DNA of 64,000 nt. Origin: Chloroflexus sp. Y-396-1 (lineage in GTDB: Bacteria > Chloroflexota > Chloroflexia > Chloroflexales > Chloroflexaceae). The stretch spans positions 2,512,881-2,576,880 of the forward strand of contig NZ_KI911784.1 of NCBI RefSeq assembly GCF_000516515.1, read 5' to 3'. The position numbers were made by a program, and so were the translations under genes. Of this stretch, positions 2,919 through 59,975 are shown one piece after another; the stretch's first letter is position 1; each line of letters begins with the position of its first letter. A model generated the notes under the pieces. The model did no database searches. It was not told the DNA's origin and was given only the letters and a program-made list of their open reading frames with translations.

Positions 2919-3344
2919 TCATTCAACAATCTTAATGCCCATACTCCGTGCTGTACCGGCGATAATCCGCTCAGCAGCCTCAATATCATTCGCGTTCATA
3001 TCGGGCATTTTCTGCTGAGCGATCTGGCGCAATTGGGCACGTGTAATCGTACCAACCGTCGTGCGCTTCGGCGTACTGGCGCCCTTTTGAATACCAGCCG
3101 CTTTGCGCAAAAGATCAGCCGCCGGTGGTGTAAGCAGACGGGCAACGAAGGAGCGGTCACTATAAATCGAAATCTCGACCGGAACGATACTCCCGGCCTG
3201 CGCGGCCGATTTTTCGTTATACTCCTTCACGAAGGCCATGATATTGATGCCGTACTGACCGAGCGCCGGGCCAACAGGTGGCGCTGGGGTAGCCTTACCG
3301 GCCGGCAATTGCAGTTTTACCACTGCGACAAGTTTCTTAGCCAC
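2919..3344 (-). CDS. rplK: Ribosomal protein L11
   Basis: L11 sits at the GTPase-associated centre of the 50S subunit. I place the start at the GTG at 3344 (AAGGAG 7-8 bases upstream), giving 141 residues, the normal length. The frame extends further upstream but that part is not L11-like. Conserved features are [20 protein letters not shown] near the N-terminus and the C-terminal segment from GTITRAQL to RSMGIKIVE. It is followed by rplA and preceded by nusG on the same strand. Confidence 0.96.
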
Positions 3345-3429
3345 GACACAACTCCTTGAATGGCGGGAAAGCGGCCATTGCACTCTCCCTCCCTCGCACA
3401 ACCGGCGAGGTAGCGGATCTACGACACAA

Positions 3430-3999
3430 TTATTCTACCAATCGAGTTACCTGTAAGAAATCAAGTTCAACCGGCGCTTCACGGCCAAAGAAAGAGACGA
3501 GGACACGTACTCGACCTCTCTCGTGGTCGATAGCATCGACAATACCCTCGAAATCGGTAAAGGGACCGTCGATAATCTTGACCGCCTGTCCTTTTTGATA
3601 GCTTACGCGCACCTTAGGAGTTTCGCCCTCCATCTGACGAAGTATCGCTTTCACCTCTTCTTCATCAAGAGGGGTAGGTTTATTGCCATGCCCGACGAAG
3701 CTGGTCACGCCAGGTGTATTGCGTACCACGTACCACGAATCATCAGTAAGACGCATCTGTACCAGGACATAGCCGGGATAGATCTTCTTGTTGACCGTGC
3801 GGCGCTGACCATTTTTGATCTCAATTTCCTCTTCGGTTGGCACGATCACGCGAAAAATCTGGTCTTGCATCTCCATCGAAGCAATCCGATGCTCCAGATT
3901 TTTCTTGACCTTATTTTCGTAACCTGAGTAGGTATGGATCACATACCAGCGCCGATCATCGGCCTCTTTCTCTTTTTCCTTTTCCTTTTCCTCAGACAT
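3430..3999 (-). CDS. nusG: Transcription termination/antitermination factor NusG
   Basis: NusG binds RNA polymerase and links transcription to translation and to Rho. The 189-residue product has an NGN domain (from [20 protein letters not shown] to about 125) and a C-terminal KOW domain ([18 protein letters not shown]). The first 12 residues are an unusual run of alternating Glu/Lys after MSEE, encoded by a purine-rich repeat. The position between secE and rplK is the standard bacterial order. Confidence 0.97.
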
Positions 4000-4021
4000 G
4001 GCAGTCCTCGTTCGCGAATAG

Positions 4022-4249
4022 CTATTGGACGAGGCTCACGAGACTCGTGTAAAGGAAGGTGAAAATTGTATCGCCAATGAAGAGCAACAACCCGATAACA
4101 AGCGATACTGCAACCACGAGTACCGTAAGGCGAATTGTCTCTTCGCGGCTTGGCCAAACAACTTGCCGTAACTCGCTGCGCGTTTCGCGAAACGTGCGCA
4201 CGAGAATGTTTTCTTGAACGTCACGCTCTGTATCTTTGGCCACGGCCAT
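4022..4249 (-). CDS. secE: Preprotein translocase subunit SecE
   Basis: SecE is the small clamp subunit of the SecYEG protein-conducting channel. The 75-residue product has the conserved amphipathic segment FRETRSELRQVVWPSREET followed by one membrane segment (about residues 41-62). It is the short, single-span form usual outside gammaproteobacteria. It sits between tuf and nusG with a 22-base gap to nusG. No rpmG gene is visible next to it. Confidence 0.96.
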   Translation of the reverse strand: MAVAKDTERDVQENILVRTFRETRSELRQVVWPSREETIRLTVLVVAVSLVIGLLLFIGDTIFTFLYTSLVSLVQ

Positions 4250-42228: not shown

Positions 42229-42664
42229 AGAGCCTATCCAAATGATCACCCCTCTCCCGCAGCGCGGGAGAGGGGTTGGGGGTGAGGGCCGCCCGCAGCG
42301 CCTGGCGGCCCTCACCTTCCCCCCAGCCCCCTTCCGCTCCCACGCTGCGGGAGAGGAAGGGGGGGAAGCACCCTCCCTTTCCCACCAGCCTCCTTCCGCT
42401 CCCACTAGGGGAGAGATTAGCGTAGCAGCGGCGACTCTGTGCCTGTGTCTTTCAACGATACCGAGGCCACCAACCAGATCACCCCTCTCCCGCACTGCGG
42501 GAGAGGGGTTGGGGGTGAGGGCCGCCCGCAGCGCCTGGCGCTGCACGCTCAGCAGCGGGAACGTGCAGTGGATGGAGGGACAAAACATTGGCCCCTCAAC
42601 ACAACGGTTGCCTAGGCACAGTACGTTCCCGATAAGAAATCTGGGTTTTTAGTCAGGCTTTAAG
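42229..42664. mobile_element. Composite GC-rich repeat element
   Basis: Two CCCCTCTCCCGC-xx-GCGGGAGAGGGG hairpins (about 42245-42272 and 42481-42507) flank a segment that resembles the units at 59147-59900 (CGGCGACTCTGTGCCTGTGTCTTTC, then ATACCGAGGCCACCAACCAG). The right edge (ACGTTCCCGATAAGAAATCTGGGTTTTTAGTCAGGCTTT) matches the ends of the MITE-like elements at 14065 and 20037. It holds no gene. Confidence 0.55.
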
Positions 42665-43110: not shown

Positions 43111-43253
43111 TTGCTGTCACAGTATCTTGAGTTCACTATCTTAATACCTCCCGATCCGAGAATTTTTCTGATAAACCAAAAGGTTTGAATGGTGGAATCA
43201 GTACAATTTCCTGGCATACTGCTATTGATGTAAAACAACATTGGACAACAGCA

Positions 43254-44306
43254 ATGGATGTGCAGATCACAACCCTGACCCCCTTCTGGACCGGCGGTGT
43301 GGAGGGAACGACCGACCGGCTGCACGAAAGCGGATTGATCGGCAGCATGCGTTGGTGGTATGAAGCGATTGTGCGTGGGTTGGGCGGTGAGGCATGCGAT
43401 CCGAGTCAGAGCAAGTGCACCTTCGATGCTGAAAAGTATCAGAAATCATCAGCCAGCACTCCATCGCAACGTCTGCGCGATGCTGGACTGTGCGATGCAT
43501 GCCAGGTCTTTGGCGCAACCGGCTGGCGGCGACGGTTTCGTCTGACGATCATTAATGATCAGACGCAACCTATCTGGAAGGATGCACAACCACTCAACAT
43601 CCGCCCCCCTGATCGCAAGCGAGGCTGGTTTTTGCCGCCAGGGCGTATGGGCACGTTCACGTTACGACTGACTGGCGATCCAGAGGCAGTACAGCGGATT
43701 GCGGCGCTGCTCCTATTTTTGGAACAGTGGGGAAGCCTAGGCGCTAAACCACAGCTTGGGTACGGTGCATTTCGTATAGATAATCGTGAAGATGTGCTTG
43801 CCGTGGCAAAGCAGGCGAACTGGAATACGATTTCAGTATCACAGAGCGCGAGTGCCGACCCTGATCTGCGGCAATTCCTGTTCTTCCGGTTCGATTTCAC
43901 TCCTGGACAGCCGGGCTGGTGGACCAACGTTCCAGGGATAAGCCGCGTTAGTATTCAGGTGCAACCATTGGTACAGCGCTACAACATCGTACCGGTAACG
44001 CCAGCTTTGAAAAACGCATGGCGGTTTGGTCAAAAATGGAATCGTGCTGATGAGCAAACGATATTCGGCGCTGCACTTCCCAATCGTCAACGAGGACGAA
44101 TAGGAGCAACATGGGCATACCTCGACCCCGGTAATAACCGGTGGCACGTTCACGGCTGGGCGTGGTTACCTGCACAATCGCAAACAGCGGATATGCTGAC
44201 GCAGACGTTAGGTAACGCAACAACCTGGAATCAGACGTTGAATGTACAGGGTACACTGACCCAACAACGTCCGCGAACAACTCAGGATGTGCGGCAACTG
44301 CTATAG
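43254..44306 (+). CDS. cmr1: Type III CRISPR RAMP protein Cmr1
   Basis: A 350-residue Cas7-group RAMP protein of the type III effector. It has the Cmr1 opening (TTLTPFWTGG), ESGLIGSMRWWYEAIVRGLGG, then DP, paired cysteines (CDACQVFGATGWRRRF) and a Gly-rich loop LGAKPQLGYGAF. The frame extends upstream to a TTG at 43185 but the RAMP fold begins at the ATG at 43254. In Cmr complexes it caps the crRNA 3' end. It is the first gene after the promoter and is followed 11 bases later by the ATPase gene. Confidence 0.88.
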   Translation: MDVQITTLTPFWTGGVEGTTDRLHESGLIGSMRWWYEAIVRGLGGEACDPSQSKCTFDAEKYQKSSASTPSQRLRDAGLCDACQVFGATGWRRRFRLTIINDQTQPIWKDAQPLNIRPPDRKRGWFLPPGRMGTFTLRLTGDPEAVQRIAALLLFLEQWGSLGAKPQLGYGAFRIDNREDVLAVAKQANWNTISVSQSASADPDLRQFLFFRFDFTPGQPGWWTNVPGISRVSIQVQPLVQRYNIVPVTPALKNAWRFGQKWNRADEQTIFGAALPNRQRGRIGATWAYLDPGNNRWHVHGWAWLPAQSQTADMLTQTLGNATTWNQTLNVQGTLTQQRPRTTQDVRQLL

Positions 44307-44317
44307 GGGGCACTGCA

Positions 44318-45607
44318 ATGCTTCAATCTCTGACCATCCACCGCTTTCGTGGTATTCGCGAGGGCGTGATCCAAAATCTACGGGCATTCAACGTCTTGAT
44401 CGGTCCGAACAATAGCGGCAAGTCCGCGCTGCTGGAACTGCTCTACCTGGGCGGATTGAGCAGACGAACCTGCCAGCTCATCACCGAAACCATTGAGCCT
44501 CCCGTTCACGCGGCGACAACCCTCGTCGCAAGAGATTTTTTGGCGCATTCGCCCACCAAACGGCTACGTCAACGCCATGGCTATGCGGTGCGTGAGACGA
44601 ATTCCTTCGTGATCGATCTAGACAAAGAAAAGGCTTTGGATCTGGAGCTTCCCGATCTTCCGGCAACACACCCGTTGCACCGATTCCGTCTGGCCGCTGA
44701 AGCACCAGACCGGTTTCGCAAAACCGACATGCAACACGCAGTCCTGTTTTCGCTCAGTCAGCCGAACCAGGCGCCGCCGGAGTTCATCCCAACGCTCCTC
44801 GACACCCATCGTCCAGAGCACCCCTCGCAGCGCTGGCATTACGTGTGGGATCAACGCTGGGTGTATCGCTGGAACGATACTCAACCCCTGGATCGACTGG
44901 CAATATGGGCAGAGGCTGGCGACGGTGCGGCAGCACATGTGCTCTTCTTTGATTTTCACACCGCCCATGCCCACTTTGAAGGCGCCTTTGCGCAACGCTG
45001 CTATCGCACGGTGAACAAGTGGGAAGAGCGCATCGCGCAGAGCATGGCGCGGGTATTTCCGGATATGGCCGGAGTACGAGTGAATGTGAAGCCAACCCCG
45101 ACCGGCAAGACCTGGGGCGGGTACCTGGAACTTCCCAACCGCACCCTGCCGATTGAGATCGATCAGTTCGGCGATGGCGCCCGTCATGCGTTCAAGGTGC
45201 TGGCTGCCCTCATCGCCCTAGTTGACCGCGCCGAACAGCACGAGTCGGGATTGTTCTTGTGGGAAGATCCGGAGTTGTTTATGCACCCTGCTACCCTGGG
45301 TCGGTTGCTCGATGAAGTTGCCCGACTGGTGGCAGGAAAGCCTGTGCAGGTTTTCTTGTCTACCCAAAGCCTGGAAGTCATCGCCCATCTTACCCGCATG
45401 CTCCAGCACGACATCTTACCGCCCGAACAAACGCTGGCATTTCGCCTGAGTCTGCGCGATGGGGTATTGAAGTCATCATGGTTCAATCGCAACAATCTGA
45501 CTTCCTGGCTTGAATCAGGTCGCGATCCGCGTGTTCTTGAAGACATTGATGCGCCGCTTCAGTTTCAACTGCGGGAGGAAGTTCATGAAGATTCAAGTCT
45601 TTGCTGA
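44318..45607 (+). CDS. AAA/SMC-like ATPase inserted in the type III operon
   Basis: A 429-residue ABC/OLD-like ATPase. Visible are an N-terminal IHRFRGIREG start, Walker A GPNNSGKS (29-36), a signature-like QFGDGARHAF (about 281-290), Walker B GLFLWEDPE (about 310-318) and an STQSLEVI switch (about 346). It has no TOPRIM domain of its own; that is supplied by the next gene, which it overlaps by 23 bases. AAA ATPase plus TOPRIM pairs act as defence or stress nucleases (OLD family, PARIS, some retron systems). Membership in any one of these is not established here. Confidence 0.85.
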   Translation: MLQSLTIHRFRGIREGVIQNLRAFNVLIGPNNSGKSALLELLYLGGLSRRTCQLITETIEPPVHAATTLVARDFLAHSPTKRLRQRHGYAVRETNSFVIDLDKEKALDLELPDLPATHPLHRFRLAAEAPDRFRKTDMQHAVLFSLSQPNQAPPEFIPTLLDTHRPEHPSQRWHYVWDQRWVYRWNDTQPLDRLAIWAEAGDGAAAHVLFFDFHTAHAHFEGAFAQRCYRTVNKWEERIAQSMARVFPDMAGVRVNVKPTPTGKTWGGYLELPNRTLPIEIDQFGDGARHAFKVLAALIALVDRAEQHESGLFLWEDPELFMHPATLGRLLDEVARLVAGKPVQVFLSTQSLEVIAHLTRMLQHDILPPEQTLAFRLSLRDGVLKSSWFNRNNLTSWLESGRDPRVLEDIDAPLQFQLREEVHEDSSLC

Positions 45608-46295
45608 GGGTAAAACTGAAGAGAAGGTGATTGAAAAGTTAAAGCAATTTTTCCCTGGTCGTACCTTTGAGACCATCGATTGCAAGGGAAAGAACAACAT
45701 TAACAGTAGAATTGACGATGAACTCGGCCCAGATATAGGACAACAGCCGGTTCGAGCGCTCATTCTGCGTGATAAGGATCCAAACGAGACTACTAAGCAA
45801 GTTGTTCAGAGCGTTAACAATGGATTGGGAGGACTCTTGAATCAACGTGGTATTAATACCTCGCTACAATTCCAGCGTGTTGCAGGAGTTTGGAATGCCT
45901 TTGTCTGGAATGCGGCAAGTCTAGACTTCCGTTTAGCCATTCACATTGCATCTCGCCGCTCGCTTCCCGGTCTTACGAAATATACTATCGACGATCTGGT
46001 GTTACAATTGGCACTTGATCAAAATGTAGCCGCTCATCTTGCGCAAAGGCAGAAGGTGAATGTAAACGGACAGGTTATTATTCAAAAAGTGACGCAAGAA
46101 ATACCGACGCTGCTGCAACAGAACGGTTTTCCGCCTCTGTCAGAAGCCAAAGATTATGTTCGCCTGTACGCAGCTGTGATTCGGATGCATACGTCGCCGC
46201 CGGTGTTCGCCGAGAAAGTGCTGGCGAGCGCGAATAATCATCTCTTGCAACAGAACTTTGCGTCGATTATTGCAGCAATAAGGGCGATTCTATGA
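45585..46295 (+). CDS. TOPRIM-like nuclease partner of the ATPase
   Basis: A 236-residue protein with the marks of a stand-alone TOPRIM fold (DUF4276/DUF4435-like): FAEGKTEEK at the N-terminus with the catalytic Glu8, and LILRDKDPNE with an Asp63-x-Asp65 pair. The remainder is helical with no other recognised domain. I start it at the ATG at 45585 (GGGAGGA upstream), within the ATPase gene. Its stop overlaps the next RAMP gene (ATGA at 46292-46295). Nuclease activity is inferred from the motifs. Confidence 0.72.
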   Translation: MKIQVFAEGKTEEKVIEKLKQFFPGRTFETIDCKGKNNINSRIDDELGPDIGQQPVRALILRDKDPNETTKQVVQSVNNGLGGLLNQRGINTSLQFQRVAGVWNAFVWNAASLDFRLAIHIASRRSLPGLTKYTIDDLVLQLALDQNVAAHLAQRQKVNVNGQVIIQKVTQEIPTLLQQNGFPPLSEAKDYVRLYAAVIRMHTSPPVFAEKVLASANNHLLQQNFASIIAAIRAIL

Positions 46296-47287
46296 GTTAC
46301 GAATTCCATGCCCGCTTCCCTTTTGCCCTTCAGGACGGTACCGTGCAGGCATTTGCGCTGCAATGGCTTGCCGGCGAGACGCAGGAGCTGCCGAAGCGCT
46401 GGGGTGATCTGCGCTTGCTGCGTGACCCGACTGCACGGCTGGCAGTGCTGGCGCAGGCAATGATCACGCCCCAACTCGAACGTGCCCGCAGTGGCACCCG
46501 CACACAGGCTGGCGGTTACCGCCTGTGGGTCGAACGGGACGCTGCAACATTCCTTGCCCGCCAACGCACTACGATGCAGCAACTCGGTCTGGAACCAACG
46601 CTGCCTGACCTGGCAACCCTCCCACCTGGAGCGTGGGCGCTGCGTCTGACCTTCACCCTGAGCAAGCCATATCTGAGCAGAGACGACCGTCTTTTTCACC
46701 TTCTAGAAAATCCGGTGAAGAAGGAGTGGGTTTTTGATGTTCCCTACGTTGCGCCGTCGGGATGGAAAGGTGCCCTGCGCGCTGCGCTGCGTCAGATGCG
46801 CGGGTATACCACGTTGGAACAGGAAGCGAACGACTCGCAGATGGTGCGGCTGTTCGGCAACGTCAGGGGGGAAGAAGAGGCATTTCGCGCCGGGTCGGTG
46901 CAGTTCTTTCCCACCTTCTTCGACCGTCTCGGTTTAGAGGTGATCAACCCGCATGACCGGGAAAAGGGGGTTGGTGCACGCGGGCCGATCTTGCTGGAAT
47001 GCGTACCCGCTGGCGCGCAGGGTACGTTGATGCTGCTCTACGTACCGACTGGCATAGCGGTCGATATGCAGCAGAGTGCCGCGGACCTCGTGGTCGTTGC
47101 GCAGGGCATTCAGGCGATGCTGAGCACCTATGGCTTTGGCGCGAAAACGAGCAGCGGCTTCGGCATAGCCGCAGATGATCTGGTGGATGGCGAGATACGC
47201 ATCGCTATGCAGACGCTTTCTCTGAAGGGTAAACGGCTGAGTAATCTGGCAGCGGAGGTAGAACACTGGCTGAAGACCGCGCTGTAA
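46292..47287 (+). CDS. Type III CRISPR RAMP protein, Cmr6-like
   Basis: A 331-residue RAMP protein. It has a fold motif YVAPSGWKGALRAAL, a VRLFGN segment, FFPTFFDRLGLEVINPHDR and the C-terminal Gly-rich loop STYGFGAKTSSGFG. The last resembles Cmr6; assignment to Cmr6 versus another Cas7-group subunit is uncertain. It is coupled to the TOPRIM gene by a 4-base overlap. Confidence 0.8.
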   Translation: MSYEFHARFPFALQDGTVQAFALQWLAGETQELPKRWGDLRLLRDPTARLAVLAQAMITPQLERARSGTRTQAGGYRLWVERDAATFLARQRTTMQQLGLEPTLPDLATLPPGAWALRLTFTLSKPYLSRDDRLFHLLENPVKKEWVFDVPYVAPSGWKGALRAALRQMRGYTTLEQEANDSQMVRLFGNVRGEEEAFRAGSVQFFPTFFDRLGLEVINPHDREKGVGARGPILLECVPAGAQGTLMLLYVPTGIAVDMQQSAADLVVVAQGIQAMLSTYGFGAKTSSGFGIAADDLVDGEIRIAMQTLSLKGKRLSNLAAEVEHWLKTAL

Positions 47288-47418
47288 TGCTGCCGCCGTC
47301 CGAGCCGATGGTAGCACGTCGTGCCAAGCGTGAAGACGAACCGGCGCGGTGCGTGGAGGTGCAGCGCACATCGGATATCTTCGTTTACGCCCCTGAAGGG
47401 TTTCGTCTTCTGATGTAG
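47287..47418 (+). CDS. Possible 43-residue small protein
   Basis: The stop of the RAMP gene overlaps an ATG in TAATG, opening a 43-codon frame (starts MLPPSEPMVARRAKRED, ends FVYAPEGFRLLM). It is very basic and acidic in its first half. There is no separate ribosome binding site, so it would rely on coupling. It fills most of the otherwise unexplained 180-base gap before cas10. It may be chance. Confidence 0.3.
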   Translation: MLPPSEPMVARRAKREDEPARCVEVQRTSDIFVYAPEGFRLLM

Positions 47419-47467
47419 GAACGCGAGTTTGTGAGTGAAAACGTGCTGGCAGGAGGGAAGGTGCTTT

Positions 47468-50293
47468 ATGAGCGTTGTTAACAGTCAATTGCAGACGTTA
47501 GCTCAGCATCGAGCAGAAATTTTACTCGCTGAAGCAATTGGATGGCTCCATGATTATCGGAAGTGTTCTGATGAACATCTAAAGGTACAGGCGGCAAATC
47601 TGACGGGTCAGCAAGCCCTACCTCGCAATAGACTTGGGCAACAGTATCCTACTTTGAACAACGAACAAATCCAACTTTTAGGATGCTTTCGTCGGGTTGC
47701 TGACTTGCTAAGTACCTGGAACAATGATGTCTTAGGACAATATCTCCAGCGCTGTCACAATACCGCACATTTTGATAAACAGAAACCCGTTGGTGGCGAA
47801 CAACACTATCCAGACATGAAACTCAGCACTCCTTTTGGGTTTGAGAAAGGTATACCGAACAATCTGACCAGTCAACTATGGGGATTACCGTGGAATAACT
47901 TAACATCATATTCTAGCCACCAATTATATTCTATCCACCAAACTTTGCGAAAGGCTATCGGTCTCCTATTTTCACAGACGGTCGCGGATACACGTCGTCC
48001 AATTAATGAAGTGGACTTGTGGGGATGGGGCTTACTCGTGGGTGCGTTGTACAAGTCAGCGCTTGCAGGCGCGTTGCTTATCGGTCAAACATCGCAGCCG
48101 CCGGATTTGCGCTGGAGATTGTTAGGAGTGCAGGTGAATGGTCTGGAATACTTTCTGAACGTCTCCAGGATTCCCGATTTGTTAGCGCGTCAGGAACTTC
48201 TTTCCCAGGCATTGGATCAAGTGCGTGAGCTACTGGAAGTAACATATCCATTAGGAAGCGAAGTATATCGTGATGAGAATGGAGCTATTTTTGTTGTTCC
48301 TGATTTACTTAACCTTTTAGACATAGAAGATAATAACGGTACATCACTCAAAGATCTGATATTAAGGGCTTTTGCCGGGAATAACAACTCACAGTCGTCG
48401 GTTAATGGTGAAGTTGTTCCTCAACTCACCCTTGAAAAGCAAGCATGGTGGGGGCAGGATCCCAACTGGCCCAATTCTTCAGATGATGAAATTCCTGAAA
48501 TCGCTGCTTTTCTTGGCGTTCCGGCGTCTCACTCTGTGAATATCAGCGAAATTAAATCGGCATGGAACAAAAAGTATGCCGAAGTCTGTACTGTCTGCGG
48601 TCTGCGTCCGCAGGGATCCGACCCCAAGGCACAGGAGCGTAAGGTTTGTGATGTATGCGAACAGCGGCGTGCCAATCGGTCAAAGACCTGGGCAGATAAG
48701 CAACTCGATAGAACTATATGGACCGATGAGGTAGCAGATATAAATGCTCGTCTGGCTTTGATTACGGGCACGTTCGATCTGGCGCATTGGCTTGATGGTA
48801 GCCTGTTGCAGTCGCTTCTGTTAATTGCACCCCACGATCCTCAGAATACGAATTGTCAATCAGTCACACCCAAAACTCCGTCGTTTAGTCGTCTTCGCCG
48901 TATTTGGGAAACAACACGGTCATTTTGGCAAGAAGTTCAGAAAGAACTTTTAAGCCAGCTTGTCGATGATCGCCGAAGGCTGCGGATTTACCTCGATCAA
49001 CCGGCAAATCTAGCAGGTTTCCATGTGTACGACCTTATGTTGGGGACGACCGATCTGAGCGTTGTCTGGATTCCGCCTCAGTCAAATGTTAATGGCTATC
49101 TTCTAAGTGCTGATAACTTAGGAACAATCGCCCGAAGGCTTGGAGCAGAACAAGCTGTTTATAATCATCCTGCTACTGCGGCAATTTTCGTTGAAGATTA
49201 TATCAATGACAATTTCGTAAAGCAAGGTAGAGCTCCTTCGTTATATAATCCTGAAAACAATGGTAACAGGGCTAATCTACTTAACGGCTTTCAAATCAGG
49301 CAAATTCAATATCAGCAAAATAAATATGCCACAATTATCCCCCTCCTCGCCGAACCACGGGTCTTCATGGCGCTTGTACCGGCGGATAAGGCCCTGGAGA
49401 TCATCCGCCAAATCAAGACGAAGTACGAACGCGAGATGGGCAAGGTACGGAATCGCCTGCCGCTGCATCTGGGCGTGGTATTTGCGCCACGCCCCACCCC
49501 GCTGCGCGCCGTGCTCGACGCCGGGCGGGCGATGCTGGAGCGCCAGACGGTAGCTGGCGTTTGGGAAGTATTGTGCTGTGCGCGGAAAATGGTCAGTCAA
49601 GGCGATTCGCTGCCCCAGCGCTTCCAGCCTGACCAGGCGGGTCAATTCGCTGAGTGGTACGAAGTAACCTTGCAGCGGGATGACCAGCGCCTGACCTGGC
49701 ATATTCCAGCTTTAATGGGCGACGGTCAGACCGAAGACCTCTGGTACCCTTACGTCTTTCTAGATGATCCAACTGAACCGACGACGCGCAAACGGTATTT
49801 CAAGAGTCGCAATCCGTGGAAGGGTTGCGATGGCTGGCTGGTTCACGCCGCTGAGTTGCAGGTCGGTGATCGGGTATGGTTCACACCCGCGACGTTCGAC
49901 TTCGAGTTCCTTGATACAACCACTCGCCGCTTCGAGATCCACTATGATACCAATGGACGGCGGACGAACCGACGCACCCGACCGTTTTACCTCGACGATC
50001 TGGAGCGGTTCGATAGGCTCTGGGAAGTGTTCCTGCGTCTGAGCACCACTCAGCGCCATCAAGTGGTGCGCACGATTGAGGCGACTCGTGAGGAATGGTT
50101 TGCACGGGATTGTAATGGCACCTCGGTCACCGATCCGGTGTTCAAGCAATTTGTGCATGACACGCTGGCTGGCGCCGAATGGGATTGGAAGGCGTTGCCG
50201 CAGCACATCCGTGATCAGTTTGTCGCTGCTGGTGTGCGTGGTGAACTGGCCGATCTGCTCGAACTGCGCATGGAGATTCTCAAGGAGGAATGA
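47468..50293 (+). CDS. cas10: Type III large subunit Cas10, Csx11/III-C-like, without visible GGDD
   Basis: A 941-residue large subunit. The N-terminus has an HD-type motif AIGWLHDYRK (His28-Asp29), a possible DNase domain. A zinc-binding CTVCG...CDVCEQRR lies near residues 375-400. The palm region that normally holds GGDD reads LAEPRVFMALVPADKALEI (about 625-643), so the cyclase signature is absent. Absence of GGDD plus size above 900 residues fits Csx11, the III-C Cas10. The ATG at 47468 has GGAGGGAAGG upstream. It would organise the crRNA complex with the RAMP subunits here. Confidence 0.85.
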   Translation: MSVVNSQLQTLAQHRAEILLAEAIGWLHDYRKCSDEHLKVQAANLTGQQALPRNRLGQQYPTLNNEQIQLLGCFRRVADLLSTWNNDVLGQYLQRCHNTAHFDKQKPVGGEQHYPDMKLSTPFGFEKGIPNNLTSQLWGLPWNNLTSYSSHQLYSIHQTLRKAIGLLFSQTVADTRRPINEVDLWGWGLLVGALYKSALAGALLIGQTSQPPDLRWRLLGVQVNGLEYFLNVSRIPDLLARQELLSQALDQVRELLEVTYPLGSEVYRDENGAIFVVPDLLNLLDIEDNNGTSLKDLILRAFAGNNNSQSSVNGEVVPQLTLEKQAWWGQDPNWPNSSDDEIPEIAAFLGVPASHSVNISEIKSAWNKKYAEVCTVCGLRPQGSDPKAQERKVCDVCEQRRANRSKTWADKQLDRTIWTDEVADINARLALITGTFDLAHWLDGSLLQSLLLIAPHDPQNTNCQSVTPKTPSFSRLRRIWETTRSFWQEVQKELLSQLVDDRRRLRIYLDQPANLAGFHVYDLMLGTTDLSVVWIPPQSNVNGYLLSADNLGTIARRLGAEQAVYNHPATAAIFVEDYINDNFVKQGRAPSLYNPENNGNRANLLNGFQIRQIQYQQNKYATIIPLLAEPRVFMALVPADKALEIIRQIKTKYEREMGKVRNRLPLHLGVVFAPRPTPLRAVLDAGRAMLERQTVAGVWEVLCCARKMVSQGDSLPQRFQPDQAGQFAEWYEVTLQRDDQRLTWHIPALMGDGQTEDLWYPYVFLDDPTEPTTRKRYFKSRNPWKGCDGWLVHAAELQVGDRVWFTPATFDFEFLDTTTRRFEIHYDTNGRRTNRRTRPFYLDDLERFDRLWEVFLRLSTTQRHQVVRTIEATREEWFARDCNGTSVTDPVFKQFVHDTLAGAEWDWKALPQHIRDQFVAAGVRGELADLLELRMEILKEE

Positions 50294-50297
50294 GGTT

Positions 50298-51290
50298 ATG
50301 GCAATCTACAAGCGACGACGTTATCTCTTCATGACACTTGATCCGGTGCATATCGGTACCGGCGGCTACCGTCTGGGGCGCGTGGACAACAGCATCGTGC
50401 GCGAGCCGGGCACACGGGTGCCGAAAATCCCTGGCACAAGTCTCCACGGCGCAGCCCGTTCTTACGCTGCCCAACTGTATGGAACGCCCGAAGCTGCCGG
50501 TCAAACGCACGACGAAATAGAAAATCCCGATAAGAATCCAGTGTGTTATACCTTTGGCTACATCAAGAAAAGCAATAACGGACAAGACGTCAAAGCCTAC
50601 TCCGGCGTGGTCAACGTCTTCGACGCGCACATTGTGCTCTTCCCAGTACATTCACTGGTAGGACCGGTATGGGTCGGCACGGTCGAGCGGTTGCGTGAGG
50701 CGGGTTTTGAGGTGAGCGACGTGCCCAGAGAATGGGCGAAGGATAAAGTGCTGTTGACGTTTGAGCGCACAGACCCGCTTAATCTGGGATGGTTGATGCT
50801 CAACAGTGGCGGGCAGGTCACCGTGAATGCGCCGACTAACTGTCAGATCGATCGCTGGAACGCGATTAAGAACAAGATCGCATTGGTACATGAGTCCATC
50901 TTCAGCCATATCGTCAACAGCAACCTCGAAGTGCGCACCTCGGTGAGTATCAACCCCGAAACCGGCGCTGCCGAGGATAAGGCGCTCTTCACCTATGAAG
51001 CCATCCCCCGCGCCACGTTTCTAACCGCTGAAGTGGTGCTGGATGACTATCGAGCGAAATTCGAACCAGTTCCGCCAAATAAAAACTCTCTACCCAGTAA
51101 TGCCGGCTGGCAATCGCCCCTCGACGTACTCGATGCCGGTCTGCGCTTGATCGAGTGGCTGGGCGTTGGCGGTATGGGCACACGCGGCTTTGGTCGGATC
51201 GCCATTGTCGGTCAACCGCAGGAAGAGGATTATGGTCAGCAGGCCAATGCTGCGCAGTCACCATGTGGTGAAGGAGCGACAACACCGTAA
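50298..51290 (+). CDS. cmr4: Type III CRISPR RAMP backbone protein Cmr4
   Basis: A 330-residue Cas7-group protein that would form the repeated backbone of the complex and cut target RNA. It has HIGTGGYRLGRVDNSIVRE with a conserved Asp (Asp30) in the position of the Cmr4 catalytic loop, VPKIPGTSLHGAARSY as the RAMP fold motif, and the C-terminal loop GVGGMGTRGFGRI. It starts at the ATG at 50298 after AAGGAGG, four bases after the cas10 stop. A longer in-frame reading inside cas10 is not used. Confidence 0.85.
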   Translation: MAIYKRRRYLFMTLDPVHIGTGGYRLGRVDNSIVREPGTRVPKIPGTSLHGAARSYAAQLYGTPEAAGQTHDEIENPDKNPVCYTFGYIKKSNNGQDVKAYSGVVNVFDAHIVLFPVHSLVGPVWVGTVERLREAGFEVSDVPREWAKDKVLLTFERTDPLNLGWLMLNSGGQVTVNAPTNCQIDRWNAIKNKIALVHESIFSHIVNSNLEVRTSVSINPETGAAEDKALFTYEAIPRATFLTAEVVLDDYRAKFEPVPPNKNSLPSNAGWQSPLDVLDAGLRLIEWLGVGGMGTRGFGRIAIVGQPQEEDYGQQANAAQSPCGEGATTP

Positions 51291-51304
51291 AGCGAGGAGC
51301 AACC

Positions 51305-51724
51305 ATGACCAACACGACTTCGATCAATCTTGACTACCTGGCTGCAAAATATGCACAGACTATCATCCAGCAGACGCAGAACAAGAAGGCTTCTGACGTC
51401 GAAAACACCATGACCAAAGCTTTGGGCGTGCTTCAGGAAGACGGGGTCTATGCCTGCTTTCTCTACTTGCTTGCCAGAGAGAAGGAGAACGGTGCTGTTG
51501 TCGTTGATGAAATGCTCAATCTGTTAAGTAGTCTACCGTTCGGTTGGCAGAAGCCAACAAATAATAGTAACGAGATACTCCGCTTCATCAATGAACAGGT
51601 AACAAAAGACCTGGAGCGTCTGTTGTTGGCGCGTGAGGTGCTGGAACAGATGCTGATCTACGCACGCTATGGTGCAAAAGCGCGTGACAAGGGCGGAAGC
51701 GAGGCGTCAGGAGCATCGTCATGA
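51305..51724 (+). CDS. cmr5: Type III small subunit Cmr5
   Basis: A 139-residue, mostly helical protein of the Cas11 group. It begins MTNTTSINLDYLAAKYAQTI and has the helical core typical of Cmr5 (Tyr-Ala-rich helix 1, LQEDGVYACFLYLLAREKE, and a long C-terminal helix EVLEQMLIYARYGAKA). It fills the inner filament of the complex. It lies 14 bases after cmr4 and overlaps the following RAMP gene by 4 bases. Confidence 0.82.
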   Translation: MTNTTSINLDYLAAKYAQTIIQQTQNKKASDVENTMTKALGVLQEDGVYACFLYLLAREKENGAVVVDEMLNLLSSLPFGWQKPTNNSNEILRFINEQVTKDLERLLLAREVLEQMLIYARYGAKARDKGGSEASGASS

Positions 51725-52587
51725 ACTGGATCGGGTATCGCGTTGTTTTTCGTTTGCGCTCACCGTTGCACATCGGCTGGCGCAAGGTTGGCAATGTGCA
51801 GGTCACTCGCCACTATCTCACCGGTCGATCCTTTTGGGGTGCGCTGACCGCACGCCTAGCGCGTGATACAGCGGGGCAAACAGCAACCAGCTCAAACGAT
51901 TATCAAGCAATCGGTGAGCAGGTAAATGAGATGCTGGCCTTCACCTATTTCTACCCGGCGTTGCAATCGGGCTGTAACTATCAGGTGGTCTGGCCGTGGG
52001 ATGATGAACGCACCTTTCGCCGACGTTTCCTGAGCAGTTATCAATCTACTGCGCTGGTCTACCCAGCGCATTCAGCCGCTGAAGGGTCGCTGCACGAGAT
52101 TGAGTTTCTCTCGCCTCACACGCTTGATACTGCCGATCCGGTTTACCTGGTCGGGTATGTGTTTGCGCACAAGGATTGTTCGCTGCAATTGTGCAACGCA
52201 CTAAAACGTCTGCAATTCGGCGGCGAACGCGGCTATGGTTGGGGTAAGACAGAATTGGTGCGTCTTGAGAAGGCCAACAACGATGTTTTCGGTTACGCTG
52301 TTGATTGCAGCGGTTGTCGCCCTGTCATAACTGTTCCGAAAGGTGAACGTTTGCTTGCCCACACGAAACCGGATCAGGCAATGATCGCAGGCGAGGTCGA
52401 GCCGCTGGTCGGGCGCGAGTGGCATACGAACAACGGTGCAGGGCAGAGCTTGTCATTTACAGGTATTATGTATGTGCCAGGGAGCAGGGTTCTATCAGAG
52501 AAACAGCGTTTTATCGTGGGCAACTTTGGAATCTGGCAGGTGCATACCAAATCATCATGCAGGGCTGGTTTCCCAACCCGCCCCTAG
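51721..52587 (+). CDS. Type III CRISPR RAMP protein, Cas5/Cmr3-like role
   Basis: A 288-residue RAMP protein. It opens with RVVFRLRSPLHIGWRKVGN and the motif YLTGRSFWGALTARL, and has a Gly-rich loop FGGERGYGWGKTEL. I think it fills the Cas5-group (Cmr3-like) slot, since Cmr1, Cmr4, Cmr5 and Cmr6-like are already present, but the match is not strong. The last nine codons (GCAGGGCTGGTTTCCCAACC onward) come from the first unit of the tandem array, so the natural C-terminus may have been altered by that array. Confidence 0.75.
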   Translation: MNWIGYRVVFRLRSPLHIGWRKVGNVQVTRHYLTGRSFWGALTARLARDTAGQTATSSNDYQAIGEQVNEMLAFTYFYPALQSGCNYQVVWPWDDERTFRRRFLSSYQSTALVYPAHSAAEGSLHEIEFLSPHTLDTADPVYLVGYVFAHKDCSLQLCNALKRLQFGGERGYGWGKTELVRLEKANNDVFGYAVDCSGCRPVITVPKGERLLAHTKPDQAMIAGEVEPLVGREWHTNNGAGQSLSFTGIMYVPGSRVLSEKQRFIVGNFGIWQVHTKSSCRAGFPTRP

Positions 52588-52892
52588 CAGCAAATAATGT
52601 CCTTTTCATACTTCATCCCAACCAACAACACTAGGGACGGGTTGGAAACCCGCCCCTAGCAGCAAATAATGTCCTTTTCATACTTCATCCCAACCAACAA
52701 CACTAGGGACGGGTTGGAAACCCGCCCCTACCAGCAAATAATGTCCTTTTCATACTTCATCCCAACCAACAACACTAGGGACGGGTTGGAAACCCGCCCC
52801 TACCAGCAAATAATGTCCTTTTCATACTTCATCCCAACCAACAACACTAGGGACGGGTTGGAAACCCGCCCCTACCAGCAAATAATGTCCTT
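52564..52892. repeat. 72-bp tandem repeat array
   Basis: Four exact or near-exact 72-base units (starts 52585, 52657, 52729, 52801) plus a partial head and tail. Each unit includes TAGGGACGGGTTGGAAACCCGCCCCTA, an imperfect palindrome, and the constant stretch AAATAATGTCCTTTTCATAC. Since the whole unit repeats, there are no unique spacers and this is not a CRISPR array. It fills the space between the convergent stops of the last RAMP gene and the HD-GYP gene. Confidence 0.95.
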
Positions 52893-54366
52893 AACTCAAC
52901 TCAACCAGTATCTGTGAGCGGGCAGGCTGTCGTAATCGTGGTGCCTGCTCCCATAAACGTTCGCGTTGCATTAAGCGAACAAACACATCAACCACCTGGG
53001 CATCCCAGTGAGTACCGCGACCTTCTTGAAGAATTTGCAGGGCCTGTTCGGGCGACAATGCCGGACGGTACGCCCGATCAGCGGTCAGTGCTTCAAAGGC
53101 ATCGGCTACGGCAAGAATACGGGCGCCGAGTGGAATATCGTCGCCGCGCAAGCCATACGGATAACCAGTGCCATCAATACGCTCATGGTGCGTGGCAATA
53201 ATTGGTAGAATGTCGCGTAAACCGCGGATCTGCTCAAGGATGCGAATTCCGATCTCTGGATGGGCCCGCATTTGAGCAGCCTCTTGTACTGAGAGTGGCC
53301 CTGGTTTGAGCAGCACATCATCGGGTATACCTATCTTGCCGATGTCGTGCAACAAACCTGCATAATGAATACGTTCAATCTCGTCGGCGCTCAACCCCAA
53401 CTCTTGGGCCAACCGTACTGCGTAGCGCGTCACCTGGCGAGAATGACCGTAGGTATACGCATCACGAGCCTCGATAGCACCGGCGAGTGCGGCAATCATC
53501 TGCTCGTATTGGTCTTTAAGGGCGCGATACAGACGAGCGTTGTCGAGCGCAGAGGCGATCTGTGAGGCAAAAACTTCAATTAAATGGCGGTCAGTGGCAT
53601 CGAACGGTGGTTGCTCATTTCTAAGCGCGAGATCGAGCAGACCAATCGCCCGATCACGACTCCTCAATATCACTTCGATCCAGTGATCAGGAGAGACTGA
53701 GGGGCGATCTATTAATTGACGATGGGCTACGCGCAGTGCCTCTTCACTCGTTTCTGCTAGCGTGAGCCGCAGCCCAGGATCAGGCCCGGTAAGCGCAACC
53801 AGTGTCTCACCATCAGAATCGATGAGTGATAAACCAATATGGCTCGGGGTAAAACGACGACCGATAAACTCGATCAAACGAGCAGTCTGTTCTGCAATGT
53901 CGAGCGACGTTGCAATCGCCTGACTGAATTGATACATCAAGACTAAATCCGAAAGGCGTTCTTTTTCGCGTCGGACACGCTGCAACTCGATTGCAGTGCG
54001 AATTGTTTTCTGCAACTGCTCGGCATCTATCGGTTTAGCAATGTAATCCAGGGCACCGAGCTTTAGTGCTTCACGGGCGGTTTCCACCGTCGCATGCGCA
54101 GTCATTACGATCGCATCAGTGTGTAGGTAGTAGGTACGTAGATGCTTCACCAACTCAATGCCATCAATATGAGGCATTTGTAGATCAGTTAGCACCAGAT
54201 CAAACGATTGTTCGCGCAGTATCTCAATAGCCGAAAGACCATGGTCGGTAACGGCTACATCGTAATCACGACGGAGGAGCAGACGACAAAACTCACGGAT
54301 ATTTATTTCGTCGTCCACAATAAGGATTCGGGGGCGGGGTGATGAAGCATTTACGTAATCCGCCAT
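52891..54366 (-). CDS. Response regulator with GAF and HD-GYP domains
   Basis: A 491-residue protein: receiver domain (13-125, phosphoacceptor Asp61 in LVLTDLQMP), GAF domain (about 150-300) and HD-GYP domain (about 310-470). The HD-GYP motifs HDIGKIGIPD, HHERIDGTGYPYGLRGDDIP are complete, so it probably hydrolyses cyclic di-GMP on phosphorylation. Its stop codon falls at the end of the tandem array (52891-52893). Confidence 0.94.
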   Translation of the reverse strand: MADYVNASSPRPRILIVDDEINIREFCRLLLRRDYDVAVTDHGLSAIEILREQSFDLVLTDLQMPHIDGIELVKHLRTYYLHTDAIVMTAHATVETAREALKLGALDYIAKPIDAEQLQKTIRTAIELQRVRREKERLSDLVLMYQFSQAIATSLDIAEQTARLIEFIGRRFTPSHIGLSLIDSDGETLVALTGPDPGLRLTLAETSEEALRVAHRQLIDRPSVSPDHWIEVILRSRDRAIGLLDLALRNEQPPFDATDRHLIEVFASQIASALDNARLYRALKDQYEQMIAALAGAIEARDAYTYGHSRQVTRYAVRLAQELGLSADEIERIHYAGLLHDIGKIGIPDDVLLKPGPLSVQEAAQMRAHPEIGIRILEQIRGLRDILPIIATHHERIDGTGYPYGLRGDDIPLGARILAVADAFEALTADRAYRPALSPEQALQILQEGRGTHWDAQVVDVFVRLMQRERLWEQAPRLRQPARSQILVELS

Positions 54367-58879: not shown

Positions 58880-59968
58880 CTGAGCTTTTGATGGGCCCTC
58901 ACCTTCCCCCCTGCCCCCCTTCCTCTCCCACGCTGCGGGAGAGGAAGGGGGGAGGTACCCCCTCACCTTCCCCCCCCGCCCCCCCTTCCTCTCCCACGCT
59001 GCGGGAGAGGAAGGGGGGAGGTACCCCCTCACCTTCCCCCCCTTCCTCTCCCACGCTGCGGGAGAGGAAGGGGGGAGGTACTCCCGCACCTTCCCCCCAG
59101 CCCCCCTGCCACTCCCACCAGGGGAGCGGAAGAGGAGGAGATGAGCGTCGCAGTGGCGATCCTGCGCCTACGTCTTGCAATAATGCCGATGCCACCAACC
59201 AGCTCACCCCTCTCCCGCAGCGCGGGAGAGGGGCTGGGGGTGAGGGCGGCCCTCACCTTCCCCCCCAGCCCCCCTTCCTCTCCCACGCTGCGGGAGAGGA
59301 AGGGGGGCTCCTCACCTTCCCCCCAGCCCCGTCCGCTCCCGCACGGGAAGCGGAAGAGGGGAGAGGTTCGCGTCGCAGTGGCGATCCTGCGCCTACGTCT
59401 TGCAACAATGCCGAGGCCGCAAATCAGATCGATCACCCCTCTCCCGCAACGCGGGAGAGGGGCTGGGGGTGAGGGCGGCCCTCACCTTCCCCCCCAGCCC
59501 CCCTTCCTCTCCCACGCTGCGGGAGAGGAAGGGGGGAGGTACTCCCGCACCTTCCCCCCAGCCCCCCCTGCCACTCCCACCAGGGGAGCGGAAGAGGAGG
59601 AGATGAGCGCCGCAGTGGCGATCCTGCGCCTACGTCTTGCAATAATGCCGATGCAACCAACCAGCTCACCCCTCTCCCGCACTGCGGGAGAGGGGCCGGG
59701 GGTGAGGGCGGCCCTCACCTTCCCCCCTGCCCCCCCTTCCTCTCCCACGCTGCGGGAGAGGAAGGGGGGAGGTACTCCCGCACCTTCCCCCCAGCCCCGT
59801 CCGCTCCCGCACGGGAAGCGGAAGAGGGGAGAGGTTCGCGTCGCAGTGGCGATCCTGCGCCTACGTCTTGCAACAATGCCGAGGCCGCAAATCAGATCGA
59901 TCACCCCTCTCCCGCAACGCGGGAGAGGGGCAGGGGGTGAGGGCCTCCCGCAACGCGGGAGAGGGGTG
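58880..59968. repeat. Array of GC-rich hairpin repeats
   Basis: About ten perfect or near-perfect hairpins of the form CCTCTCCC(G)-x-(C)GGGAGAGG. Alternating with them are four copies of GTCGCAGTGGCGATCCTGCG-type units starting near 59147, 59372, 59609 and 59840 (periods about 225-237). A larger duplication of about 465 bases (59100-59560 and 59570-60000) is also apparent. Long ORFs across it are low-complexity artefacts. Confidence 0.9.
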
Positions 59969-59975
59969 ACGGGTA

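Follow-up and report, generated by a model that had tools for sequence, protein, structure and literature searches.

A conserved ATPase-TOPRIM gene pair within type III-C CRISPR operons is a candidate effector module

Introduction

An ATPase and a TOPRIM protein encoded by separate genes are known from PARIS and from a proposed class 4 of the OLD family (PMC10568477). In the OLD protein of B. pseudomallei, the active site is described as comprising E400, E404, D455, D457, T506, E508 and K562 (PMC6755086). Here we describe a gene pair of this general kind, an ABC-type ATPase and a stand-alone TOPRIM protein, which is located within a type III-C CRISPR operon of Chloroflexus sp. Y-396-1. The DNA that was analysed (hereafter the window) is a stretch of 64,000 nucleotides corresponding to positions 2,512,881-2,576,880 of a single-contig 4.89-Mb genome; unless another locus is named, all coordinates below are those of the window, and the operon genes and their motifs are on the + strand.

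Type III effectors with CARF or SAVED domains include Csm6 and Csx1. According to a 2024 survey, type III-C systems are without a cyclase active site and have no known effector, while a recognisable HD nuclease is present in half of them (PMC11229360); III-C is also listed elsewhere among the subtypes with an inactivated cyclase (PMC12669027). It is the assignment of the operon to III-C that gives the pair most of its interest, as a concrete and conserved candidate, with predicted catalytic residues, for the way in which such systems protect a cell. On balance we lean towards the view that the pair is a dedicated effector module of one branch of III-C, and that what switches it is the Cmr complex when bound to its target, not cyclic oligoadenylate (cOA).

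Results

An ATPase gene and a TOPRIM gene are embedded in a type III-C operon

Eight genes at 43,254-52,587 are arranged in the order Cmr1, ATPase, TOPRIM, Cmr6, Cas10c, Cmr4, Cmr5 and Cmr3. An initial annotation of this DNA had proposed a coupled ATPase and TOPRIM protein inside a Cmr operon, and indeed both open reading frames (44318..45607 and 45585..46295) and all of the motifs that it quoted were recovered at its coordinates. The coupling itself is upheld by ATPase profile matches, a confidently predicted TOPRIM fold, a conserved active site and the overlap of the genes. The same holds for the translational packing that had been described: the TOPRIM gene begins within the ATPase gene, in a different frame. 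We measured an overlap of 23 nt, with GGGAGGAAG ahead of the TOPRIM start, and at the other end the TOPRIM stop and the Cmr6 start share 4 nt. The operon does contain Cmr genes, as had been stated, with Cmr1, Cmr3, Cmr4, Cmr5 and Cmr6 all present, but it is not a generic Cmr operon. Its large subunit is Cas10c/Csx11 (47468..50293; PADLOC Cas10c 1.6e-254; TIGR02682 1.3e-139, 467 bits versus a cut-off of 249), and for this reason the operon belongs to subtype III-C and an assignment to III-B was rejected.

The TOPRIM protein resembles OLD nucleases

The TOPRIM gene (45585..46295) encodes a stand-alone protein of 236 aa that is predicted to be an OLD-type two-metal nuclease. The initial annotation had made its claim depend on finding a TOPRIM fold in a predicted structure, and such a fold was found: the AlphaFold2 model, built from eight sequences, has a mean predicted local distance difference test score (pLDDT) of 92.2, and both the model and its residues show the alternating beta-alpha order of a TOPRIM domain, with a Glu after beta1 and DxD after beta3. 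The top match of this model in VIA-align was PH0156 (2p62; Z 13.3, root-mean-square deviation 3.0 over 197 residues), followed by four entries for OLD C-terminal regions (Z 9.9-10.4, 174-178 residues, root-mean-square deviation 4.5-4.7), with unrelated rows starting at Z 7.9. By Foldseek alone 2p62 was the sole TOPRIM match below 0.001, and a sequence search of solved structures with the TOPRIM profile gave weak results, with 2p62 at 0.039 and polymerase matches that we judged to be chance.

Conservation of Glu8, Asp63 and Asp65, which had been put forward as a check, was observed across the 12 members of the family. Both glutamates of E8-G-K-T-E12 (E8 at 45606..45608 and E12 at 45618-45620) are invariant in 12/12, as is D63 of the R62-D63-K-D65 motif (D63-K-D65 at 45771..45779), while D65 is present in 10/12, the other two members having Glu. 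Further along the protein are T134-I-D136 (45984..45992), candidate metal-B ligands with D136 in 12/12 and T134 in 10/12, and K189 (46149..46151), a candidate catalytic lysine found in 12/12. Judging from the part of the OLD literature that describes the B. pseudomallei site (PMC6755086), E8/E12 would correspond to E400/E404, T134-I-D136 to T506-x-E508 and K189 to K562, and the successive spacings are 4, 51, 2, 69, 2 and 53 in the TOPRIM protein versus 4, 51, 2, 49, 2 and 54 in OLD. From this order and spacing, together with the shared fold, we infer that E8, E12, D63, D65, T134, D136 and K189 make up the OLD two-metal plus lysine set, and that the protein is probably a nuclease.

The ATPase is OLD- and AriA-like

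The upstream gene (44318..45607) encodes an ABC/AAA-type ATPase of 429 aa, classed as OLD/AriA-like from profiles and model. It passes the Pfam curated cut-offs for AAA_21 (8.3e-17), AAA_15 and DUF2813, and its best PADLOC model is AriA (PDLC02980; 3.1e-31 over residues 24-356), which matches 11/11 aligned members at E<=1e-6. These alignments used 11 of the 12 members and left out L069, in which the ATPase is split into two open reading frames. All three nucleotide-binding motifs are strongly conserved among the 11: Walker A, GPNNSGKS (residues 29-36, 44402..44425; G29, N31, N32, G34 and K35 invariant), the signature-like FGDGAR (residues 284-289, 45167..45184; G285-R289 invariant) and Walker B, LFLWEDPE (residues 312-319, 45251..45274; L314, W315, E316, P318 and E319 invariant). 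The ATPase model resembles the heads of Rad50, SMC and PtuA, with Z 15.8-18.3 for the rows listed, and a sequence search of solved structures with the ATPase profile reached 6p74 over residues 1-44 only. In L039 (11589-13382) the variable linker of the ATPase holds inserted repeats of a Thr/Ala/Glu-rich unit.

The likeness to AriA bears on an alternative explanation for the pair, in which the pair would not execute III-C interference at all and the ATPase would instead monitor either a viral protein or the Cmr complex. Once a viral inhibitor, for instance an anti-CRISPR, had put the complex out of action, the TOPRIM nuclease would be released and the infected cell would become dormant or die. 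In PARIS, AriA is described as a sensor that keeps AriB sequestered and gives it up on binding a phage trigger, Ocr being one such trigger (PMC12409363), and AriA being the best PADLOC model of the ATPase fits this precedent, as does the frequent retention of the HD dyad by the Cas10c proteins that accompany the pair (see below). The TOPRIM protein, however, is not AriB-like by profile, and the sampled Chloroflexota show the pair in III-C operons only, where a guarding system might sit beside other subtypes too. It also counts against such a function that we know of no anti-III-C protein. We therefore regard it as unlikely, though deserving of attention.

The pair is linked to type III-C operons in two phyla

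In the genomes searched, the family was found almost nowhere except with csx11. TOPRIM matches were obtained in 8 of 400 Chloroflexota genomes, the same count by single sequence and by profile, and csx11 in 22 of 400 (E<=0.001; 19 of them above the curated cut-off), the three 400-genome searches being treated as one set. All 8 TOPRIM genomes are among the 22 csx11 genomes (Fisher 2e-11, uncorrected for relatedness), leaving no TOPRIM match in any of the 378 csx11-negative Chloroflexota. Similarly, 7 loci were recovered from 84,980 species genomes by a pattern-based scan, all 7 within III-C operons: 3 contigs already in the sample, 3 cyanobacteria and 1 Caldilineaceae genome. A profile search of 386 cyanobacterial genomes gave 2 matches, G402 and a weak one in L079, and G402 was the only csx11-positive genome in a set of 373 that is not exactly identical to the 386. 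Two pattern-based scans of viral contigs confirmed no relative, and a phage or viral origin was rejected.

The arrangement of the pair is as constant as its association. Cmr1 lies immediately upstream of the ATPase in 12/12 pair-bearing genomes, and the order Cmr1-ATPase-TOPRIM-Cmr6 is the same in all 12, from Chloroflexota and Cyanobacteria alike, apart from a single insertion in one genome. The earlier statement that the pair is built into the operon was, if anything, too cautious. The junction between the ATPase and TOPRIM genes ranges from a 23-nt overlap, as in the window and in L044, to a 2-nt gap, and the TOPRIM and Cmr6 genes overlap by 1-19 nt in 11/12 genomes when the first possible Cmr6 start is used. 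The exception is L071 (Spirulina subsalsa), where an XisI gene and a Uma2 gene, on approximately 1 kb of DNA, separate TOPRIM from Cmr6 (L071 8845-9797). In a tree built from 30 Cas10c rows, of which 12 carry the pair, the pair trait requires 3 changes versus 9.7 when shuffled, and 0/500 shuffles gave a value as low. In this set L047 is the Cas10c representative for the genome of L046; L054 is labelled as lacking the pair though its contig stops before the slot, its genome being negative by TOPRIM profile; and L050 (G330) stops inside Cas10c, so that its pair status is not assignable.

These data also bear on whether the pair might be a passenger, that is, an ordinary ATPase-TOPRIM defence pair, self-sufficient elsewhere, that entered a III-C operon and shares no more than its transcription. 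Pairs of this general kind do occur outside CRISPR operons, e.g. the DUF4276-type pair in L079, and many III-C operons are without the pair. Set against this are the single slot that it occupies in every pair-bearing genome of two phyla, with overlapping or closely spaced genes, and the lack of any match among the csx11-negative Chloroflexota, and we consider such an origin quite improbable. The pair of the cyanobacterium L079 (9536-11229), an AAA protein with a DUF4276-type TOPRIM, is an outgroup and a non-CRISPR cousin; two short open reading frames beside it look toxin-antitoxin-like by eye.

In one group of loci the TOPRIM gene and the ATPase tail were exchanged as a cassette

Comparison of the loci L045, L046 and L048 revealed an exchanged cassette that, with breakpoints projected from these relatives, corresponds in the window to ATPase residues 320-429 and the entire TOPRIM protein (45275..46292). 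From Cmr1 through the Walker B region of the ATPase, the DNA of L045 is mostly 79-95% identical to that of L046 and L048, falling locally to 54-73% within Cmr1 and the variable ATPase linker; inside the cassette (the remaining ATPase and TOPRIM) identity is 30-47%, and in Cmr6 it is 79-94%. The proteins behave likewise. For the ATPase, blocks within residues 1-319 are 75-98% identical and residues 320-429 are 27-46% identical, whereas TOPRIM identity to L045 is 26% for L046 and 32%, over only 105 aligned residues, for L048; Cmr6 identity is 85-88%. The main differences between L046 and L048 lie in the first half of TOPRIM and in the tail of the ATPase. The exchange rests on these three loci, all from draft assemblies of 140-450 contigs in which chimeric assembly is a residual possibility; single-contig genomes nevertheless hold both cassette types, L039 having one and the window and L044 the other.

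The simplest reading of these alignments is that recombination swaps the nuclease and, along with it, the ATPase segment that would hold it. Co-exchange of the ATPase tail and TOPRIM is the best sequence evidence for contact between the two proteins. Cartridge swapping would also fit a self-contained sensor and effector of the PARIS-like, guarding kind considered above. For a passenger, on the other hand, an exchanged cassette between well-conserved cas flanks is not what one would expect, and with its csx11-linked occurrence and constant slot the pair does not look like one by its sequence and setting.

Between the window and L044, the ratio of nonsynonymous to synonymous divergence (dN/dS) is highest, among the eight operon genes, for TOPRIM (0.51), the ATPase having a value of 0.19, and by this sequence measure both frames are conserved as proteins. 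The two organisms belong to different families, and across 43254-52587 seven of the eight genes have a low synonymous divergence (dS) of 0.2-0.6, Cas10c being exceptional with dS 1.3 and 61% identity. The low dS of these seven genes suggests, if tentatively, recent horizontal transfer.

Cas10c lacks a cyclase motif

A GGDD-like motif (G[GA][DE][DE]) was found in 0/30 Cas10c rows, the aligned site of the window protein reading AEPRVF; rows of 300 aa or fewer were excluded from this count, and those under 500 aa from the tree described above, though some of the retained rows are fragments. Given the missing motif, no cOA signal is expected from Cas10c. Moreover, neither the ATPase nor the TOPRIM protein contains a CARF or SAVED domain by Pfam (E<=0.1), and on these two grounds a CARF-type cOA effector was rejected. 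The HD dyad is kept in the Cas10c of the window (WLHDYRK), and the Cas7-type aspartate segment of Cmr4 (RVDNSI) is kept in 22/22 aligned rows, the window included. In favour of an effector role for the pair, 4 of 10 pair-bearing Cas10c rows whose N-terminus is readable have lost the HD aspartate.

A role in processing or maintenance was also weighed, in which the pair would serve CRISPR RNA (crRNA) maturation or trimming, spacer acquisition, or the repair of damage caused by the Cas10 HD domain. The ATPase fold is like that of Rad50 and SMC heads, TOPRIM enzymes include RNase M5 according to PMC6755086, and the operon is without a cas6 of its own: searches of the genome for Cas6 and Cas1 gave matches elsewhere and none inside the III-C operon. 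Cas6 and Cas1 are thus present in trans, however, many III-C operons do without the module, and its closest PADLOC profiles are defence effectors (though PADLOC contains nothing else). We consider this role scarcely probable.

How the pair might act, and what weighs against it

If the pair is indeed an effector module of III-C, the following sequence of events can be envisaged. Docked on the Cmr complex, the ATPase would use its own C-terminal region to hold the TOPRIM nuclease. Binding of a viral transcript by the crRNA-guided complex would then change the state of the ATPase, by ATP binding or hydrolysis, and this change would free or stimulate the TOPRIM nuclease, which might cleave DNA or RNA, e.g. 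tRNA in the manner of AriB. Direct protein contact would in this way stand in for the cOA/CARF relay that III-C cannot run. The nuclease and the ATPase tail would form an exchangeable cartridge, and the fixed socket would consist of the cas genes and the half of the ATPase that binds ATP.

Several observations weigh against an effector function. First, no TOPRIM match was found in 14/22 csx11-positive Chloroflexota genomes, at least 2 of which (G330 and G105) stop in or just before Cas10c; it follows that III-C can function, or persist, without the pair. The window genome, G230 and G395 each hold one III-C locus with the pair and one without it, and 2/12 loci have broken genes, namely the split ATPase of L069 and a Cas10c with stops in L070, both from draft metagenome-assembled genomes. 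Second, the HD dyad of Cas10c is kept in 6/10 pair-bearing rows, among them the window, versus 4/15 pairless rows, HD status being readable in 10/12 and 15/18 rows, respectively. Because the dyad is commoner in the presence of the pair, the pair does not simply stand in for an HD nuclease that was lost, and a general rule of such replacement was rejected. Third, the ATPase model is of moderate quality (mean pLDDT 73.5, with four of five models below 65), two members of the family, L039 and L045, have Glu in place of D65, and the dN/dS of TOPRIM is compatible with an arms race but also with weaker constraint. Finally, operon position is by itself no proof of contact, and PARIS-like guarding is compatible with the same observations.

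Other features of the operon and its relatives

The remaining cas genes of the window gave clear profile matches. Cmr1, a RAMP protein and the first gene of the operon, occupies 43254..44306 (PADLOC Cmr1 4.3e-20; TIGR01894 2.9e-16), where by inspection the ATG at 43254 is a likelier start than the TTG at 43185 given in the list of open reading frames. Cmr6, also a RAMP protein, is at 46292..47287 (PADLOC Cmr6 3.8e-72), Cmr4 (Cas7) at 50298..51290 (TIGR02580 2.1e-28, above cut-off; start codon inferred from residue counting), Cmr5 at 51305..51724 (PADLOC Cmr5 7.1e-47) and Cmr3 at 51721..52587 (PADLOC Cmr3 1.7e-87). Five 72-bp tandem repeats (52561-52920) begin within cmr3, at its 3' end, and extend past the gene; each contains an inverted repeat by eye, and no CRISPR-like spacers are present among the five. 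GC-rich repeat clusters with a palindrome-like CCTCTCCCGCAGCGCGGGAGAGG unit are located at 42251-42405 and 58882-59973.

The second III-C operon of the same genome (L065; 1,930.8-1,938.3 kb) is pairless and has a Cas10c interrupted by a frame change. Between its Cmr6 and Cas10c lies a gene pair for an MNT-like nucleotidyltransferase and a HEPN protein. Nucleotidyltransferase- and HEPN-like genes recur in this position in L045, L046, L061, L065, L070 and L071 (both genes of L065 and one of L071 were called by Pfam, the others by eye), and they occur in III-C operons both with and without the TOPRIM pair. The III-C operon region of L039 also contains a second AAA_21 ATPase (3090-4202), which follows closely on Cmr3 on its downstream side.

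Discussion

The data presented herein reveal an ATPase-TOPRIM pair as a conserved unit of III-C operons that lack a cyclase motif. If the effector function is correct, a type III complex would drive a nuclease by direct contact, and RNA-guided immunity would be joined with the OLD/PARIS class of ATPase-TOPRIM systems. We tentatively extend this to an evolutionary proposal, which we hold a little less probable than its opposite: that III-C swapped second-messenger signalling for a directly docked ATPase-TOPRIM effector with an interchangeable OLD-type nuclease cartridge. Such an effector would be the first for III-C and would represent a branch of type III immunity that works by protein contact and independently of cOA. 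The exchangeable cassette suggests a possible route for such evolution, with the weapon swapped and the guide complex retained.

The initial annotation knew of no description of such a pair in a Cmr operon, and the titles and abstracts found by searching open PubMed Central likewise gave none for a III-C TOPRIM/ATPase pair; supplementary tables may list it. The word 'Toprim' is named once in a figure legend of PMC10910872, with the system unstated in that legend.

How, then, does the pair compare with known systems? With the CARF and SAVED effectors it shares only its proposed role, as a nuclease that would be switched on by a target-bound Cas10 complex. The closest solved fold of the TOPRIM protein, PH0156 (2p62; DUF3226), is archaeal, 16% identical and described only as hypothetical, and the nearest sequence profiles, HEC-01B, mad4, DUF3226 and OLD-like_TOPRIM, are mostly weak. 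DUF3226 matches 5/12 members at E<=1 (best 1.6e-5), with the window protein at 17.8 bits versus a gathering threshold of 27. HEC-01B matches TOPRIM in 7/12 members with low scores (best 1.1e-7, window 9e-4), and HEC-01A models match the ATPase in 10-11 of 11 members. The mad4 profile matches TOPRIM in 3/12 members, again with low scores, and MAD3 matches residues 1-44 only of the ATPase, far under the cut-off. To our knowledge, HEC-01 and MADS (mad3/mad4) are not components of type III-C. The PADLOC model 'ATPase-Toprim_I-B' (PDLC02915) is similar in that its name links an ATPase-TOPRIM protein to a CRISPR subtype. However, it is a single-protein model of 623 positions named for I-B; it matches the ATPase best at residues 2-42 and gave no match to TOPRIM among the 12 members in PADLOC.

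PARIS and the OLD family allow a closer comparison. As in PARIS, an ABC ATPase and a TOPRIM protein with two-metal logic are encoded by separate tandem genes, and the ATPase has AriA as its best profile; the analogy with PARIS drawn in the initial annotation thus stands for the ATPase. It does not extend to the TOPRIM protein, for which neither AriB (PADLOC) nor DUF4435 (Pfam) gave a match at E<=1 in any of the 12 members, by sequence profiles only, and simple PARIS membership was rejected on this side; AriB is also not among the listed fold matches, an absence that is uninformative. Unlike the pair, which lies inside a III-C operon, PARIS is free-standing; in it AriB is sequestered by a hexamer of AriA and, when a phage trigger releases it, cleaves tRNA as a dimer. 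With OLD (classes 1 and 2, and GajA) the pair shares a TOPRIM and helical domain with E, E, DxD, TxE/D and K, and an ABC ATPase partner. In OLD classes 1-3, by contrast, ATPase and TOPRIM are fused, where the window has two polypeptides, and compared with the OLD family and GajA the pair differs by its CRISPR context and by having no helicase gene beside it in the window. The pair is thus a variant of the split OLD/PARIS-like ATPase-TOPRIM kind, in a setting that we have not found described.

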